A DNA stretch of 34,333 nucleotides from a virus: positions 1-34,333 of IMG/VR virus record IMGVR_UViG_3300030104_002411; one strand, 5' to 3'. A model generated the notes under the pieces. The model was not told the origin of the DNA, made no database searches, and saw only the letters and a list, made by a program, of their open reading frames with translations. A program made the position numbers and the translations under genes. Below are positions 6,179 to 34,333 of this stretch, in pieces. Positions within the stretch are counted from its first letter, which is position 1. Each line of letters opens with the position of its first letter.

Positions 6179-7240
6179 ATGAAATTTGAAAGAGATAAGA
6201 AAGACTCGAACATACTTATATATCCATCGTGTTATACCTTTGCCTACATCATCAATGGCAAAAGAAAACAAAACAAGTTAGCTGACATCAACACACCTAT
6301 TGAAGCTGTCAGAATTAAAGCAGCCAAACATCATGCCTTGGTATTAGAAGGTATAGATCCTTTTGGTAAATCAAATAATAAAATTATGACAGTGCAAACT
6401 TTCGCTGACTCATGGTTTAAATATTTAGAAAAAACTAAGGGCCTAAAAAGTAGAAAGTCTTTTGAAAATATATATGACAACTATTTAAAAAAAGTCTTTG
6501 GCTCAAGAGATATAAAAACTATTACCCACCAAGAAGTTAAAGATTGGTTCTATGATATTGATAAACAAAGCATGGCTAATAAATCTTTAATGGTGTTCAA
6601 AAAGGTGTTCAATGAAGCAAAGGCTTCTGAGTACACAGAGAAATATCCTTTCAACCTGGTTAAGAAATACACTGAAAGTATTAGAGAAAATTACCTAACA
6701 CAAGACCAGCTTGTAGAGGTTATAAAAGAATTGAACAGCCGATATGAAATACATCGTAAAAGATCATCAGTGGATTTTATTTGGGCTTGTATCTTAACAG
6801 GAGCAAGGTCTGCTTCTGAAATAGGTAATGCTAAATGGAGTGACTTCAAAGGAGATAGGATCGTTTTAAACGAACATAAAACCGCAAACAAAACAGGTGA
6901 TAAGCGTGTGATTTATCTCAATGCTCAATCACAAAAGATTATAGAACGACAACCTAGAACCAATGGCAAAAGACATGAATATATCTTTGCGATTAAAACA
7001 CCTTATCGTATGTGGAAAAACATTAGAGCAAAGTTTGGTTTAGATCACATTACACTACACGATCTAAGACATAGTTTTGCCAGTCATTGTATTTCGTTTG
7101 AGAAGATGACATTGAAGGAAGTGGGCGATTTGTTAGGACACAAATCAACCCAAACTACAAATAGGTATGCTCACCTATTAGAAGAAACCACCATTGATAA
7201 CATCAATAGGATGGGTAAGTTTCACTCTAAGTTTTTTTAG
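6179..7240 (+). CDS. int: Tyrosine site-specific integrase, 353 aa
   Basis: This is a phage-type tyrosine recombinase that would integrate the genome into the host chromosome at a tRNA gene. Catalytic residues are visible in order: Arg210 (LTGARSASEI), Lys234 (EHKTANKTG), His294 and Arg297 (TLHDLRHSFAS), His321 (LLGHKST) and Tyr330 (TTNRYAHL). The N-terminal ~60 residues match the arm-binding region and 70-165 the SAM-like core-binding domain. The length is normal for P4/lambda-type integrases. A purine-rich GAGAGAG site precedes the ATG. The gene lies right beside attP, so after integration it sits at one end of the prophage. Confidence 0.95.
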   Translation: MKFERDKKDSNILIYPSCYTFAYIINGKRKQNKLADINTPIEAVRIKAAKHHALVLEGIDPFGKSNNKIMTVQTFADSWFKYLEKTKGLKSRKSFENIYDNYLKKVFGSRDIKTITHQEVKDWFYDIDKQSMANKSLMVFKKVFNEAKASEYTEKYPFNLVKKYTESIRENYLTQDQLVEVIKELNSRYEIHRKRSSVDFIWACILTGARSASEIGNAKWSDFKGDRIVLNEHKTANKTGDKRVIYLNAQSQKIIERQPRTNGKRHEYIFAIKTPYRMWKNIRAKFGLDHITLHDLRHSFASHCISFEKMTLKEVGDLLGHKSTQTTNRYAHLLEETTIDNINRMGKFHSKFF

Positions 7241-10640: not shown

Positions 10641-11008
10641 AAGATAACTACCCCAGCTTATGTCAATGTGGTCGCCCAGCATTGCCATTCCTCGTTATAA
10701 AAGGCGAAGGGCGATTTGTTTATGGAGCGTGTTCAATGGAGCATCAAAAAGAAATTAATAAAGGTGAGCTTGTGAGAAATATCGCAAGAGTTTCTGATGC
10801 TGGTGTTGATTACGCTCTAACAAATTTAAAAGATACTTTTTACGAAATAATAAAGAGAGAGAAAACAGGACAAATGAATCAGTGGTCAAGAGAGAGTAAG
10901 TTAGCATTTGTGAAAGATGCGGTCAGACATTTTCTTAACCATCAAAATCATGTGGCGGAGACAGGAGAATTAAAACCCAAAGAGAATGAAATTAAATCAA
11001 TACTTTGA
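10634..11008 (+). CDS. Cys-containing early protein, GTG start, 124 aa
   Basis: It starts at a GTG overlapping the DUF669 gene by seven bases, with AAGGTGA upstream. Residues 10-35 contain CQCGRPALPF and YGACSMEHQKE, three Cys and a His that could form a small zinc knuckle. The remainder is helical and charged. It overlaps the primase-helicase gene by 23 bases. The position between SSB and primase suggests a replication accessory role, but I do not recognise the family. Confidence 0.65.
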   Translation: MVEDNYPSLCQCGRPALPFLVIKGEGRFVYGACSMEHQKEINKGELVRNIARVSDAGVDYALTNLKDTFYEIIKREKTGQMNQWSRESKLAFVKDAVRHFLNHQNHVAETGELKPKENEIKSIL

Positions 11009-12827
11009 TGGCGGAATAAAATTAGACAACTCAATAAAATTTGCACAAGACAGCAATAGCGTTGATGATCTTCTTAATGAAATGCGTAACTTTGGTTTGC
11101 GTGTTGATTTCTTAAAAGAAGGTTCACTGCAAAGAGTAGGTGTTAATGCTATTGGTGGCCAAAGACCTGACAAGTCAGGTGAGACTAGTGGGTGGTATAT
11201 CTATCACCAGATCAATGCAGACTATGCTTGTTGTGTCTATGGTAACTGGCGAACAGGTGAAGAAAAGAAATTCTTTACAGGCTCAACAGCAAGTCTATCT
11301 AAACAAGAACAAAAACAACTTTACGCTAAACTAGAAGAAGTTAAGGCAAAAGCTGCCGAAGATAAAGCAAGGAAGCAAGAAGAAACTGCTGAATATGTTA
11401 AAGATAAATTTAGTAAAGCAGATCAAGTAACAACACACCCATATCTAAAAGCAAAACAAATAGGATCTTATGGCATTAAAGAAGCCAATGGTAATTTATT
11501 AATACCAATGTATCGGCTACACCCAGAAACAAAAGAATTAGATTTACGTTCAGTGCAATACATAATGCCTGATGGTCAGAAAAGATTTGCGAGTGCAGGA
11601 GAGACTAAAGGTAGTTTCTTTTTAATTGGCACAGACCTTGCTTCAATTAGCCAGGTAGAAAAGATTGCAGTTTGTGAAGGCTATGCAACTGCGGTTAGTA
11701 TTTATGAAAGTTGCAACATTCCCGTCTTGGTTGTGTTCTCAGCAAATTTTTGTTTTGAAGCACTAACTAGATTTAGAAAAATTTATAATGGTCAATTTAT
11801 TTTGGCACTTGATAATGATGATTCAGGTGTTGGCCAAGACCGAGCAAAAGAGGTTCAGTCTGCAATATTTAACTGTATTACCAGAATACCCTCTGTAAAA
11901 GGCGATTATAATGACTTATTTTTGGAGTTTGGAGCTGAGAGGGTCAGAAATGAGCTGTATCAAACGGGATTCCAAATTCGAGGGTTTAGTATTCGTGACT
12001 TACAGGGAAAGCCCTTAGAGCGTGAATATGTAGTCAATGATTTGATCCCAAAAGAGGTAGCAGGAGTTTTTGCAGGTCTTGGAGGGATTGGCAAATCTGG
12101 TTTGCTGTTAGACTTGGCTCTGAAGGTAGCAAGTGGTCAAGGTCGGTGGCTCAATCAACCAATTATGTCAGGTGGTGATGTAATTTTCTTAACAGGAGAA
12201 GATTCACAAGATGAAATCCATCATAGGTTACATTCACTAGATCCAAATGAAAAAAGGTTTGGCTATCCGAATAATGTTTATATTTATTGTGTTCCCGATA
12301 ACCAACCAATAAATATTATTGCGGAAGATAATCAAGGTTTAAGAATTACAGATGCAGGGTGGTCACTGCAAGAGGAGTTGATGTCATTTCATTCTCTAAG
12401 TCTCCTCATCATTGACCCTTTGAGTAGTTTCTGCTCTGCATCTGTATCTTCTTCAAATGAAGTCGGTCAACTTTGGGGAACTTATGTTGCTGGTTTGGCC
12501 AAGAAAACAAATAGTGCGGTAATAACTTCTCACCACATGAGTAAGTCAGCGTTCAGTGCTAGTGATGCTTTTGGTTTTAGAGCAAGTATTAGAGGAGCTT
12601 CGGCTATCGTTGATTCGGCAAGGTGGGCGGCAGTTTTAACTCATGTGAAAGAAGATTTAGCTGAAGAGATATGTTTAGAAAATGATGTTGAGCCAGATAT
12701 AAATAGGGTAGCTCAATTTGCTATGGTTAAGTCTAATAGCAAAGCAGACTACACGCCTAAAACATTATTTAGAAAAGATGTTATTCTTGAACCCATAGAA
12801 CAGAGTAAAATAAAAGAGCAATGGTAA
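10986..12827 (+). CDS. Toprim primase-helicase (RepA-type ATPase fusion), 613 aa
   Basis: Domains in order are: an N-terminal region with WYIYHQ...VYGNWRTGE (residues ~70-92); a charged helical linker (~105-145); a Toprim fold with VCEGYATA (Glu231) and LALDNDDSG (Asp276/278); and a RecA-like hexameric helicase core with Walker A GLGGIGKS (364-371), FLTGEDS (401-407) and Walker B LLIIDPLSSF (Asp477). The combination matches phage primase-helicases with an AAA_25/RepA-type motor. It would prime and unwind DNA at the fork. No DNA polymerase gene is present, so host polymerase is presumably recruited. It ends one gene-overlap before a basic microprotein. Confidence 0.85.
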   Translation: MKLNQYFDGGIKLDNSIKFAQDSNSVDDLLNEMRNFGLRVDFLKEGSLQRVGVNAIGGQRPDKSGETSGWYIYHQINADYACCVYGNWRTGEEKKFFTGSTASLSKQEQKQLYAKLEEVKAKAAEDKARKQEETAEYVKDKFSKADQVTTHPYLKAKQIGSYGIKEANGNLLIPMYRLHPETKELDLRSVQYIMPDGQKRFASAGETKGSFFLIGTDLASISQVEKIAVCEGYATAVSIYESCNIPVLVVFSANFCFEALTRFRKIYNGQFILALDNDDSGVGQDRAKEVQSAIFNCITRIPSVKGDYNDLFLEFGAERVRNELYQTGFQIRGFSIRDLQGKPLEREYVVNDLIPKEVAGVFAGLGGIGKSGLLLDLALKVASGQGRWLNQPIMSGGDVIFLTGEDSQDEIHHRLHSLDPNEKRFGYPNNVYIYCVPDNQPINIIAEDNQGLRITDAGWSLQEELMSFHSLSLLIIDPLSSFCSASVSSSNEVGQLWGTYVAGLAKKTNSAVITSHHMSKSAFSASDAFGFRASIRGASAIVDSARWAAVLTHVKEDLAEEICLENDVEPDINRVAQFAMVKSNSKADYTPKTLFRKDVILEPIEQSKIKEQW

Positions 12828-13177: not shown

Positions 13178-13537
13178 ATGGAGACTAGCGATTATCTCAG
13201 AATATTAGGTGATTGGGATAAAGATTATAAACAAGCAATATTAGACAAGATGTTCCGTTTTTATTTCGAGAACGCATTATCTTTTGTTGTCACTAATACC
13301 ATAGCCAAACAACAATTTATTAATGAACCCGTCTATTATGAAGAAATATGTCGGCTCACCAATCATAAGTTTGGCTCAAGATCCACCATTCAATTATTAC
13401 TCAATGATGGGGTAGCAATTAAGGTTTACCATAAGACAAATCACAACTCCGATAAACGCTTACGGGTCTATAATATTCATCAGAATTTCATGCCAAAACT
13501 TAAAACTTTCTTAAAATATATTGATAAACGAGGGTGA
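13178..13537 (+). CDS. Winged-helix DNA-binding protein, 119 aa
   Basis: The C-terminal half looks like a winged helix: YYEEICRLTN, then SRSTIQLLLNDGVAIK as the recognition-helix region, and VYHKTNHNSDKRLRVYNI as the wing, as in MarR-type regulators. The N-terminal half is helical. It has its own strong ribosome site and candidate promoter. It is followed by an array of direct repeats and a hairpin that could be its binding sites. Roles as a repressor, activator or replication-initiation factor are all open. Confidence 0.6.
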   Translation: METSDYLRILGDWDKDYKQAILDKMFRFYFENALSFVVTNTIAKQQFINEPVYYEEICRLTNHKFGSRSTIQLLLNDGVAIKVYHKTNHNSDKRLRVYNIHQNFMPKLKTFLKYIDKRG

Positions 13538-13550
13538 AAAGATGCACAGG

Positions 13551-13588
13551 ATTGATACAAACATGCCCAATATTGATACAAACATGCC
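13551..13588 (+). repeat. Two 17-bp direct repeats, 21 bp apart
   Basis: ATTGATACAAACATGCC occurs exactly at 13551-13567 and 13572-13588. The 21-bp period equals two helical turns, so bound proteins would sit on one face. A 32-aa ORF (13542-13640) with GAGG upstream also covers the block and would repeat IDTNMP, so the repeat could be coding instead. Confidence 0.75.
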
Positions 13589-13602
13589 AACACGGGTTGT
13601 CA

Positions 13603-13632
13603 TATATCCTATTTATATCCTATTATATCCTA
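13603..13632 (+). repeat. Three TATATCCTA repeats at one-turn spacing
   Basis: TATATCCTA occurs at 13603-13611, 13614-13622 and 13624-13632, with start-to-start distances of 11 and 10 bp. The segment is AT-rich. With the two 17-mers just upstream it resembles an iteron/AT-rich origin or an operator array. Confidence 0.75.
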
Positions 13633-13635
13633 AGA

Positions 13636-13666
13636 GATGATGGCGAGCTTTTTTGCTCGCCACATC
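13636..13666. terminator. Stable hairpin with T6 loop (terminator or RNA/DNA element)
   Basis: GATG-a-TGGCGAGC pairs with GCTCGCCA-CATC around a TTTTTT loop, giving 12 paired bases with one bulge. There is no T-run after the stem on either strand, so it is not a standard terminator. It sits between two winged-helix genes, right after the direct-repeat block. Confidence 0.55.
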
Positions 13667-13685
13667 ATAAAGTAGAGGGAAAATT

Positions 13686-14171
13686 ATGTGGTGGATTCAA
13701 TACGGATTAAAGAACGACAGGAAGCAAGGCGGATGCAGTAAGGAATTATATTTTGAGCTGACAAAGAAGAATTACAGGACAAAGTTATGGCGGTGGGGGA
13801 GGAAGCAGATCGGCAGGAAGGAATTAACTGTTAGCGAGAGATTGGCAGTTTGGTCATTGGTTGAGAGATTCAGATTAGAAACATTTAGCAGTCACGATGC
13901 GGTAAAGTATTATGCTCTTATGACGGGTATGAGCAGGAACAGTTTTAGTAAGGCCATTAATGGTTTGATTAGTAAAGGCATTATTAAGTTGGTTAAGGAA
14001 GCGGAAGAGGGCAAGGTATTTGAAAGCCTGGAGAGGGGCGGGAAGAGGCATTTTCTCTTTGTTGGTTTAGCGTATGAGTTCGGCAAGGCGGGGAGGGAGA
14101 GGGCAACCAACCAAGCTCTATATTTGGGAGAGCGAGCAAGGAAGGAAGCCCAAGAGATCGGGCGGGGTTAG
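13686..14171 (+). CDS. Winged-helix protein with atypical composition, 161 aa
   Basis: The middle of the protein (SHDAVKYYALMTGMSRNSFSKA with INGLISKGIIKLVKE) is a helix-turn-helix followed by a wing-like KVFESLERGGKRHFLF. The N-terminus is Trp/Arg/Lys-rich. The coding strand is strikingly rich in G and purines, and Arg is often AGG or CGG, unlike the AGA/CGT use elsewhere. GAGGGA precedes the ATG. Its stop overlaps the convergent leftward gene by four bases. It could be a replication initiator or regulator acting on the adjacent repeats. Recent transfer would explain the composition. Confidence 0.6.
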   Translation: MWWIQYGLKNDRKQGGCSKELYFELTKKNYRTKLWRWGRKQIGRKELTVSERLAVWSLVERFRLETFSSHDAVKYYALMTGMSRNSFSKAINGLISKGIIKLVKEAEEGKVFESLERGGKRHFLFVGLAYEFGKAGRERATNQALYLGERARKEAQEIGRG

Positions 14172-25649: not shown

Positions 25650-26591
25650 ATGGCAAAAGTAACTAACGCTTTCGATACATATTCAGCACAAGCTGACAGA
25701 GAAGCATTATCCAATGTGATATATAACATCTCTCCACAGCAAACACCGTTTATGTCATCAATAGGCAAAAATAACGTAAAAAATGTAGTATTCGATTGGC
25801 AAACAGAATCGCTTCCAACACCAAGTGGAGCAGGCCAATTAGAAGGTTTTGAATTATCAAGAAGTGCAGCAACTGCAACTGTGAGAGTTTCAAACGTATG
25901 TCAAATCTCATCAAGAGATGCAACAGTAACAGGTTCACAAGAATCTTCAGATCCAGCAGGTAAAAAATCTGAAATGGCTCATCAGCTTTCTATAATGTCA
26001 AAAGCATTAAAGAGAGACATGGAAGTAGCACTATGTCAAAATAATGCGAAAACAACTGGTGCGGCTGGAACAGCTAGAAAAACTGGTGGTTTTGAATCTT
26101 GGATGGAATCTAATGTTTCAAGAGGAACAGGTGGTGCTAGTAATGCTGCTGGTGCTGCTCCAACAGATGCAAGTAATGCTAACAAAAGAGCATTAACAGA
26201 ACCTCTACTTAAAGCTGTTCTTCAATCATGTTTTGCAAATGGTGGTGAACCATCAATAGCAATCTGTGGTCCAGTTAACAAACAAGTTATTTCTGGTTTT
26301 ACAGGTAGATCACAAGCAAGACAATTTGTTGATGCAAACACAGTAGAAGCATCTGTTTCTATCTACTCTTCTGATTTTGGCGATCTAAAAATCGTACCAT
26401 CAAATCTAAGTAGAGAAAGATCATTACTATTAGTTGATCCTGAATACGCAAAAGTATCTTTCTTAAGAGACTTTAATGTTCAAGACATTGCTAAAATTGG
26501 TGATGCTGAAACTAAAATGATTGTCGCTGAGTACGGACTAGAAATGAGCAACGAAGCTGCTCATGGTGTAGTCGCTGACTTAACAGGATAG
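25650..26591 (+). CDS. Major capsid protein, SU10/DUF5309 type, 313 aa
   Basis: The N-terminus (NAFDTYSAQADREALSNVIY then NISPQQTPFMSSIGK) is the signature of the SU10 MCP family (PF17236), an HK97-fold capsid. Later pieces such as VSIYSSDFGDLKIVPSNLSR and MIVAEYGLEMSNEAAHG are also typical. AGGAG precedes the ATG at nine bases. It is followed by the strongest terminator in the window, which would raise capsid mRNA relative to the tail genes downstream. Confidence 0.9.
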   Translation: MAKVTNAFDTYSAQADREALSNVIYNISPQQTPFMSSIGKNNVKNVVFDWQTESLPTPSGAGQLEGFELSRSAATATVRVSNVCQISSRDATVTGSQESSDPAGKKSEMAHQLSIMSKALKRDMEVALCQNNAKTTGAAGTARKTGGFESWMESNVSRGTGGASNAAGAAPTDASNANKRALTEPLLKAVLQSCFANGGEPSIAICGPVNKQVISGFTGRSQARQFVDANTVEASVSIYSSDFGDLKIVPSNLSRERSLLLVDPEYAKVSFLRDFNVQDIAKIGDAETKMIVAEYGLEMSNEAAHGVVADLTG

Positions 26592-26602
26592 TTATTTAAC
26601 TA

Positions 26603-26631
26603 GGGAGAGCTTCGGCTCTCCCACTTTTTTT
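26603..26631 (+). terminator. Strong UUCG terminator after capsid gene
   Basis: GGGAGAGC-TTCG-GCTCTCCC forms an eight-pair stem with a stable UUCG loop, followed by AC and a T7 run. It is a textbook intrinsic terminator. The next gene begins at the base after the T-run. Confidence 0.95.
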
Positions 26632-32996: not shown

Positions 32997-34333
32997 ATGG
33001 CATTAATCCCCGTAACTCCACCAGCAGGTATCGTTAAGAACGGTACTGAGTATGCTAACAAAGGTCGTTGGGTTGATGGGGATTTAGTCCGTTTTGAGAA
33101 CGGCTATCTCACTCCAATCAAGGGGTGGAATAAACTCAGACAAAATCCAGTAGGCAGAATATTTAGTGGTACAGTTAGTACCACTGCTAGTAGTTTTGTT
33201 ATTACTATTACTACCACTACCGCACACGGAGCATTGGTCGGTGCTAGTGTTAATCTTAATGGTTTTGCTGCAACAGGCGGGATGCCAGCTAATCAAATAA
33301 ATCAAACTTACACGATTGCTTCCGTACCAAGCACCACAACTTTTACTATCAATACTTTCCAAGCAAATGTGCCAAGCACTGCTGCTACATTAACAAGAAC
33401 ATCAAGTGCTTCAGAAGTTGTCTTAACAGCTACACCAACAGGAATGTACGCTTACTACGATAACGATGGTAAAAAGGTTTTAGCAGTTGGTACAAGAAAC
33501 GGTGTTTTAATTTACTACGAAGAAGTCTGGTATGACATTACGCCAACAGGCTTTATAGGTGATGACACTTTATCACCACTTGGTTTTGGTGCTTATCATT
33601 TTGGTCAAGAAGATTTTGGTGATGCTCGTTCACAATCAGGCTTATCTTTTGATACTACCACTTTCTCTTTTGATAACTTTGGTGAAATACTTTTATTCTG
33701 TTCACCCTCTGACGGCAAAATATATCAATGGAATCCTAATGCTCCAGCTACCATAGGTAGTGTTGTTTCAGGAGCACCAACAAACTGTGATGGTGTGTTA
33801 GTTACGAATGAAAGACACGTTGTAGCTTTAGGAGCAGGTGGCGATCCTAGAAAGATTGCTTGGTCATCAAGAGAAACACTAAACACTTGGACAGCAGCAG
33901 CGACCAATACAGCAGGTGATTTACAAGTGCCAACAGGCGGTAGAATCTTATCAGCTTTAAAATGGCAAACAGATGTCATTATCTTTACTGACACTGGTGT
34001 TGCTAGAATGTATTACACTGGTTCTCCTTTCCTTTATGGTATTCAAGATGCTGGCACAAACTGTAAAGCGATAAGTCCTAGAACTATCGTAACGGCTGGT
34101 GCTTTCTTAGCTTGGATGGGTGAAAACTCTTTCTTTATCTTTGATGGTTCAGTCAAAGAAATACCATGTGAAGTACATGACTATATATATGACAATATAA
34201 ACTACACTTATAGACCAACATCTTCTGCTGGTCATAACTCCAACTACAATGAAATGTGGTTCTTTTTCCCAACTGGCACTTCTTTAGTACCTAATAAATA
34301 TGTTATTTGGAACTATGTTGATAATGTCTGGTC
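32997..34333 (+). CDS. Tail-accessory / stabilization protein (P22 gp10-like), N-terminal part
   Basis: The ATG four bases after the previous stop begins MALIPVTPPAGIVKNGTEYA, then NKGRWVDGDLVRFENGYLTP and IKGW. This is the standard opening of the phage stabilization protein family. The frame is open to the end of the window and joins the frame at the left end, which stops at 535, for 590 residues in all. Later segments such as KMYQWNPNAP-like strands and DTGVARMYYTGSP suit a beta-propeller. In P22 this protein closes the portal channel after packaging. Confidence 0.8.
   Translation, partial: MALIPVTPPAGIVKNGTEYANKGRWVDGDLVRFENGYLTPIKGWNKLRQNPVGRIFSGTVSTTASSFVITITTTTAHGALVGASVNLNGFAATGGMPANQINQTYTIASVPSTTTFTINTFQANVPSTAATLTRTSSASEVVLTATPTGMYAYYDNDGKKVLAVGTRNGVLIYYEEVWYDITPTGFIGDDTLSPLGFGAYHFGQEDFGDARSQSGLSFDTTTFSFDNFGEILLFCSPSDGKIYQWNPNAPATIGSVVSGAPTNCDGVLVTNERHVVALGAGGDPRKIAWSSRETLNTWTAAATNTAGDLQVPTGGRILSALKWQTDVIIFTDTGVARMYYTGSPFLYGIQDAGTNCKAISPRTIVTAGAFLAWMGENSFFIFDGSVKEIPCEVHDYIYDNINYTYRPTSSAGHNSNYNEMWFFFPTGTSLVPNKYVIWNYVDNVW
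34235..34333. repeat. 99-bp terminal redundancy, right copy
   Basis: Identical to bases 1-99. The join restores one open reading frame, which supports a circular or circularly permuted molecule of about 34,234 bp. Confidence 0.95.

Follow-up and report, generated by a model that had tools for sequence, protein, structure and literature searches.

Origins of replication are seldom identified in uncultured phages. The question raised here is whether a short block of repeats followed by a hairpin, lying between two small phage genes, is an origin or a set of operator sites. A sequence-only reading of this DNA had ended with the alternative 'iteron origin or operator array'. This has proved to be the right pair of hypotheses, the origin side having gained from a lambda-like layout, from O-like protein profiles and from the finding that the repeats are exchanged together with part of the downstream gene, g161.

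Setting and anatomy of the element

The window, i.e. the whole stretch of DNA analysed, is a full IMG/VR virus record of 34,333 bp, the ends of which share an exact repeat of 99 bp (Table 1), so that it represents either a circular assembly or a genome with direct terminal repeats. The phage is temperate and encodes, besides an integrase and an excisionase-like protein, a DUF2800 exonuclease, a Sak4-like annealing protein, an SSB-like protein and a Toprim and RepA-like (AAA_25) primase-helicase, some related phage helicases being annotated as RSF1010 RepA-like. The element is found at the end of the replication operon formed by the genes for the last four of these proteins, between two small genes past the helicase (g119 and g161), and it precedes a convergent block and the terminase genes. 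The large terminase is ~50% identical to podovirus records. Searches of phage records returned no DNA match to the element region and no protein match to g161, and no relative of g161 was found in the plasmids and bacterial genomes searched. Among relatives of the window, the cargo carried between the primase-helicase and g119 varies, with a cytosine DNA methyltransferase-like gene in two contigs (L041:6858-7850 and L043:6870-8081) and a different gene, of 169 aa, in a third (L002:3138-3647), both of which the window lacks. Far downstream, a strong hairpin (GGGAGAGC-TTCG-GCTCTCCC) with a T-run behind it, shortly past a gene ending at 26591, is likely an ordinary terminator.

Table 1. Coordinates of the features discussed, in window numbering
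Feature	Positions	Strand	Remarks
Terminal repeat	1-99 and 34235-34333		99 bp, exact
Integrase gene	6179-7240		
Primase-helicase gene	10986-12827	+	Toprim + RepA-like (AAA_25)
g119	13178-13537	+	small protein, probably winged-helix; two alleles
Allelic cassette	13530-14000		intergenic block and DNA-binding half of g161; delimited by identity between types
32-aa ORF	13542-13640	+	spans the repeats; rejected as a gene
17-bp direct repeats, ATTGATACAAACATGCC	13551-13567 and 13572-13588	+	two exact copies, period 21 bp; candidate iterons / g161 sites
Sigma-70-like promoter	13597-13626	+	TTGTCA-18-TATTAT, 10/12 match
AT-rich block	13601-13636		36 bp, 75% A+T; holds the three TATATCCTA units; candidate unwinding element
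TATATCCTA units	13603-13611, 13614-13622 and 13624-13632		steps of 11 and 10
Palindrome/hairpin	13636-13666	+	31 nt, 12 bp, one-base bulge, T6 loop
g161	13686-14171	+	encodes a winged-helix protein, a candidate O-like initiator; cassette includes codons 1-107
G-run cluster, GGGGAGGGAGAGGG	14090-14103		G3-N-G3-N-G3
Distal hairpin	26603-26622		

Every part of the repeat and hairpin block (13551-13666) described by the sequence-only reading was recovered where that reading had placed it. The repeats are not due to chance: first-order Markov simulations of the window yielded neither an exact 17-mer pair within 60 bp (0/200) nor a 9-mer triple at steps of 9-15 bp (0/200). Besides the 17-mers, the window has no close exact pair of that length, and its top tandem-repeat score belongs to the TATATCC array. 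Both repeats are confined to this one location in the genome, no further 17-mer copies within 3 mismatches being found genome-wide beyond chance. Matches to the 17-mer in three other viral contigs (L011, L013 and L015) fall inside unrelated coding genes and were dismissed as chance. Since relatives show part of a third unit (ATGCC...), the array amounts to ~2.5 units. The proposed helical phasing of the TATATCC units is not conserved, being disrupted in one relative (L001) and absent from the second cassette type described below. The least stable 40-bp window of the AT-rich block belongs to the lowest 0.45% of the genome, and the block is unexceptional at the 60-100 bp scale. Nothing in Rfam scored above threshold, and no tRNA was found. 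GC skew, a check suggested by the sequence-only reading, was uninformative as to an origin: third-position skew on the + strand is positive from ~8000 to ~14170 and mostly negative elsewhere, without a negative-to-positive switch at the element, and its sign changes track gene orientation and the division between early and late genes.

Two types of site, each with its own g161 DNA-binding half

Viral contigs provided eleven distinct genomes or fragments with both g119 and g161, window included, which divide into two types by their intergenic blocks. The direct 17-mers characterize type A (window, L001, L002 and L003), while type B (L004, L006, L008, L009, L025, L026 and L027) has at the same place an inverted pair of 17-bp sites, 22 bp apart (ATGTCGCTTATTGTTTC ... 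GATACAAATAGCGACAT), followed by CATATATCC, TATAATATCC and a hairpin, with AT-rich DNA between the inverted pair and the hairpin. The window and L004 are 92-98% identical through g119, mostly 40-63% identical over ~13530-14000 and 83-88% identical again thereafter (83-98% for the cassette flanks overall between types). As the drop in identity is confined to this interval, the swapping unit consists of the intergenic block and g161 codons 1-107, which make up the winged-helix part of the protein. Its recognition-helix region differs with type (MSRNSFSKAINGL / LHRSAVSRAIRGL) and changes together with the site, the C-terminal tail being common to A and B. In some relatives g161 stops early, at 149 aa (L001:5448-5450 and L026:3436-3438), and its last dozen residues seem dispensable. 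The primase-helicase, at 93-98% identity across cassette types, is a constant partner.

Which of the two flanking proteins goes with the site can be read from the way in which their alleles combine. The two alleles of g119, which share an identical GSRSTIQLLLND stretch, have a divergent N-terminal part and recombine independently of the cassette. All four combinations of g119 allele and cassette type are present, in independent contigs: 119A with A in the window, 119L1 with A in L001-L003, 119A with B in L004, L006, L008 and L009, and 119L1 with B in L025-L027. Since the g119 alleles combine freely with both types, the sites would belong to g161 rather than to g119, and the latter was rejected as a type-specific site binder because its alleles fail to track the site. 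The co-swapping of site and DNA-binding half across independent contigs suggests that g161 reads the site, and is the strongest evidence for this; a matched-pair cassette is well supported. According to the sequence-only reading, relatives that keep both winged-helix genes and lack the repeats would refute an origin or operator array. Type B relatives are literally of this kind, but since both the DNA-binding domain of their g161 and the repeat found at this place are of another kind, they point to a specificity switch, not to a refutation.

The hairpin is maintained in both types. In the window its folding energy is -21.3 kcal/mol (z -6.0). When sequences were aligned without regard to structure, the inner seven pairs were paired in 100% of cells, four of these seven being changed on both sides between sequences, and the covariation score was reached by 0/500 shuffles. 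In both types, then, compensatory changes preserve the arms, although, with seven distinct sequences from two clades, the covariation reflects few events, not many. No U-tract follows the stem in type A, while type B has a T-run there and its hairpin is scored as an intrinsic terminator; the conserved property is the palindrome, not termination.

g161 and the resemblance to known origins

The sequence-only reading had the element flanked by winged-helix genes. For downstream g161 the evidence consists of weak profile matches and a model that is confident in part; for g119 (structure model with a pLDDT of 36) the label is still a reading of the sequence. The model of g161 is a winged helix, partly confident in core residues 30-100 and of low confidence overall. 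A structure search returned MarR-type regulators as best PDB matches, and a mix of helix-turn-helix and initiator proteins among viral structures. In profile searches, the families matched by most g161 members are initiators, and 10/10 relatives match phrog_678 ('replication initiation O-like'), if weakly (best 0.0015). As controls, lambda O matches phrog_678, 345 and 5810, families that g161 also matches, and E. coli MarR matches no initiator family. However, direct profile comparison of g161 with lambda O found nothing, and membership of the O family is consequently not claimed.

The lambda record, processed with the same repeat finder and palindrome tool as the window, gave four 20-nt iterons at 20, 24 and 23 bp, a 41-bp gap of 78% AT and a 28-bp palindrome with 12-bp arms, the least stable 40-bp window of ori belonging to the lowest 0.85% of its genome. 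The phage element agrees with this in order and in size, its repeats being spaced by 21 bp, its AT-rich block 36 bp long and its palindrome 31 nt. It adjoins a gene for a winged-helix, initiator-like protein, and this protein and O have weak PHROG matches in common. In lambda, two iterons and the AT-rich region are reported to be the minimal unwinding fragment (PMC7466680). There are also clear differences: the lambda ori lies inside the initiator gene, whereas the phage element is intergenic, upstream of g161; there are four iterons in lambda and ~2.5 repeats here, which are not palindromic units; O has 299 aa and g161 161 aa, without direct similarity; and the window encodes a RepA-like primase-helicase, no P-like loader being found. 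A second possible likeness is to iteron plasmid origins such as the oriV of RSF1010 with RepC, which combine a separate initiator, a RepA-like helicase, repeats of ~20 bp, AT-rich DNA and hairpins, although no RepC-like protein was detected here and no plasmid relative of g161 was found.

A further peculiarity of g161 lies in its silent positions. G-ending codons make up 65% of its purine-ending codons (20% genome-wide, 41% in the next gene), lysine being encoded by AAG 16 times and by AAA once. Third-position G stands at 0.39 vs 0.10, third-position C being hardly altered, and 62 such G were observed when a synonymous null gives 21.8 +/- 3.5. The excess is strand-specific and present in both cassette types (L001-L009 and L025-L027), g161 has the highest GC skew in the genome, and it contains the only G3-N-G3-N-G3 cluster of the genome on either strand, kept in 5/6 relatives. 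No overlapping ORF common to types A and B could account for the bias, no specific motif stands out under synonymous shuffling, and lambda O is without such a bias, which rejects it as a lambda-ori feature. The strand-specific silent G excess and the triple G-run, kept in both types, raise the idea that an RNA-DNA hybrid may arise on the transcribed strand and aid the start of replication. The whole unit from promoter through g161 would then be an origin with R-loop-assisted initiation, in which the geometry of the initiator sites flips between direct and inverted from one allele to the other, an unlikely scenario.

Origin, operator or leader

The reading we favour, to which we would give an even chance, is that the element is a lambda-ori-like replication origin with g161 as its own O-like initiator, the origin lying upstream of the initiator gene. 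In this model, the 17-bp repeats would serve as binding sites of g161, the resulting complex would open the adjoining AT-rich block, the primase-helicase encoded upstream would be loaded at the opened block, and the palindrome would mark the far edge of the origin. The same g161 complex may also control transcription of g161. The origin reading is favoured by the single occurrence of the site in the genome and by its place behind the replication genes. It is weakened by the weak family matches, the negative direct comparison with lambda O, the low-confidence fold and the MarR-type PDB neighbours of g161, by type B having a single inverted pair, a more operator-like arrangement, and by the promoter-like sequence and the terminator-like hairpin of type B, which fit transcription control. 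The missing skew switch, the ordinary stability of the AT-rich block over 60-100 bp and the failure of g161 to turn up in the phage records, plasmids and bacterial genomes searched also count against it.

Some of these features also speak for an autoregulatory promoter-operator without origin function. Here g161 would be a transcription regulator of its own gene, bound to the paired 17-bp sites in front of the promoter, and the g161 mRNA would begin with the hairpin, serving as a stabiliser, an attenuator or a terminator. We consider this a less probable but serious contender. A promoter-like sequence overlaps the sites or lies immediately downstream of them. Its -10 continues into ATCC in the window, as it does in type B (TATAATATCC), TATWATATCC being common to A and B. 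The pairing of sites, whether direct with a 21-bp period or inverted 22 bp apart, is operator-like: autoregulated phage and plasmid operators likewise have 17-bp sites in pairs, spaced by two helical turns and next to a promoter-like sequence, with the difference that here site orientation (direct in A, inverted in B) is tied to the allele of the DNA-binding domain. However, promoter-like matches in the region do not exceed the number expected by chance, no good -35 was found in type B, the type A hairpin is without a U-tract, and g161 profiles favour initiators over regulators, even though its PDB fold neighbours are mainly MarR-like. Moreover, with no second site elsewhere in the genome, the operator would regulate only g161 itself, which counts against it. 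An origin is thus more likely than a pure autoregulatory operator, and both may hold. Control of late genes or antitermination, in which g161, encoded last in the early operon, would act like Q or ArpU and recognize the hairpin in RNA, would suit the location before the convergent block and terminase genes and the covarying hairpin near the RNA start, but no copy of the site or hairpin occurs near late genes and a profile search of g161 for Q, ArpU or RinA gave no match, which makes it very unlikely. The leader peptide considered by the sequence-only reading, in which translation of the 32-aa ORF would control g161 by attenuation, found no support and is the least probable of all: a GAGGG lies a few bases 5' of the ATG in g119A-type genomes, but this ribosome-binding sequence is missing with the 119L1 allele, and the frame is not conserved, type B having an unrelated peptide with in-frame stops in L026 and L027, L001 a changed, truncated C-terminus, and L002 and L003 N-to-K changes.

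Beyond this phage, the swap pattern offers a route to such elements from sequence only: where a site and the DNA-binding half of the protein encoded next to it vary in step among otherwise similar genomes, the two are a matched pair. If the origin reading is true, the two cassette types would be different replication specificities, and their direct and inverted arrangements would offer a natural experiment on origin recognition by a small winged-helix initiator.
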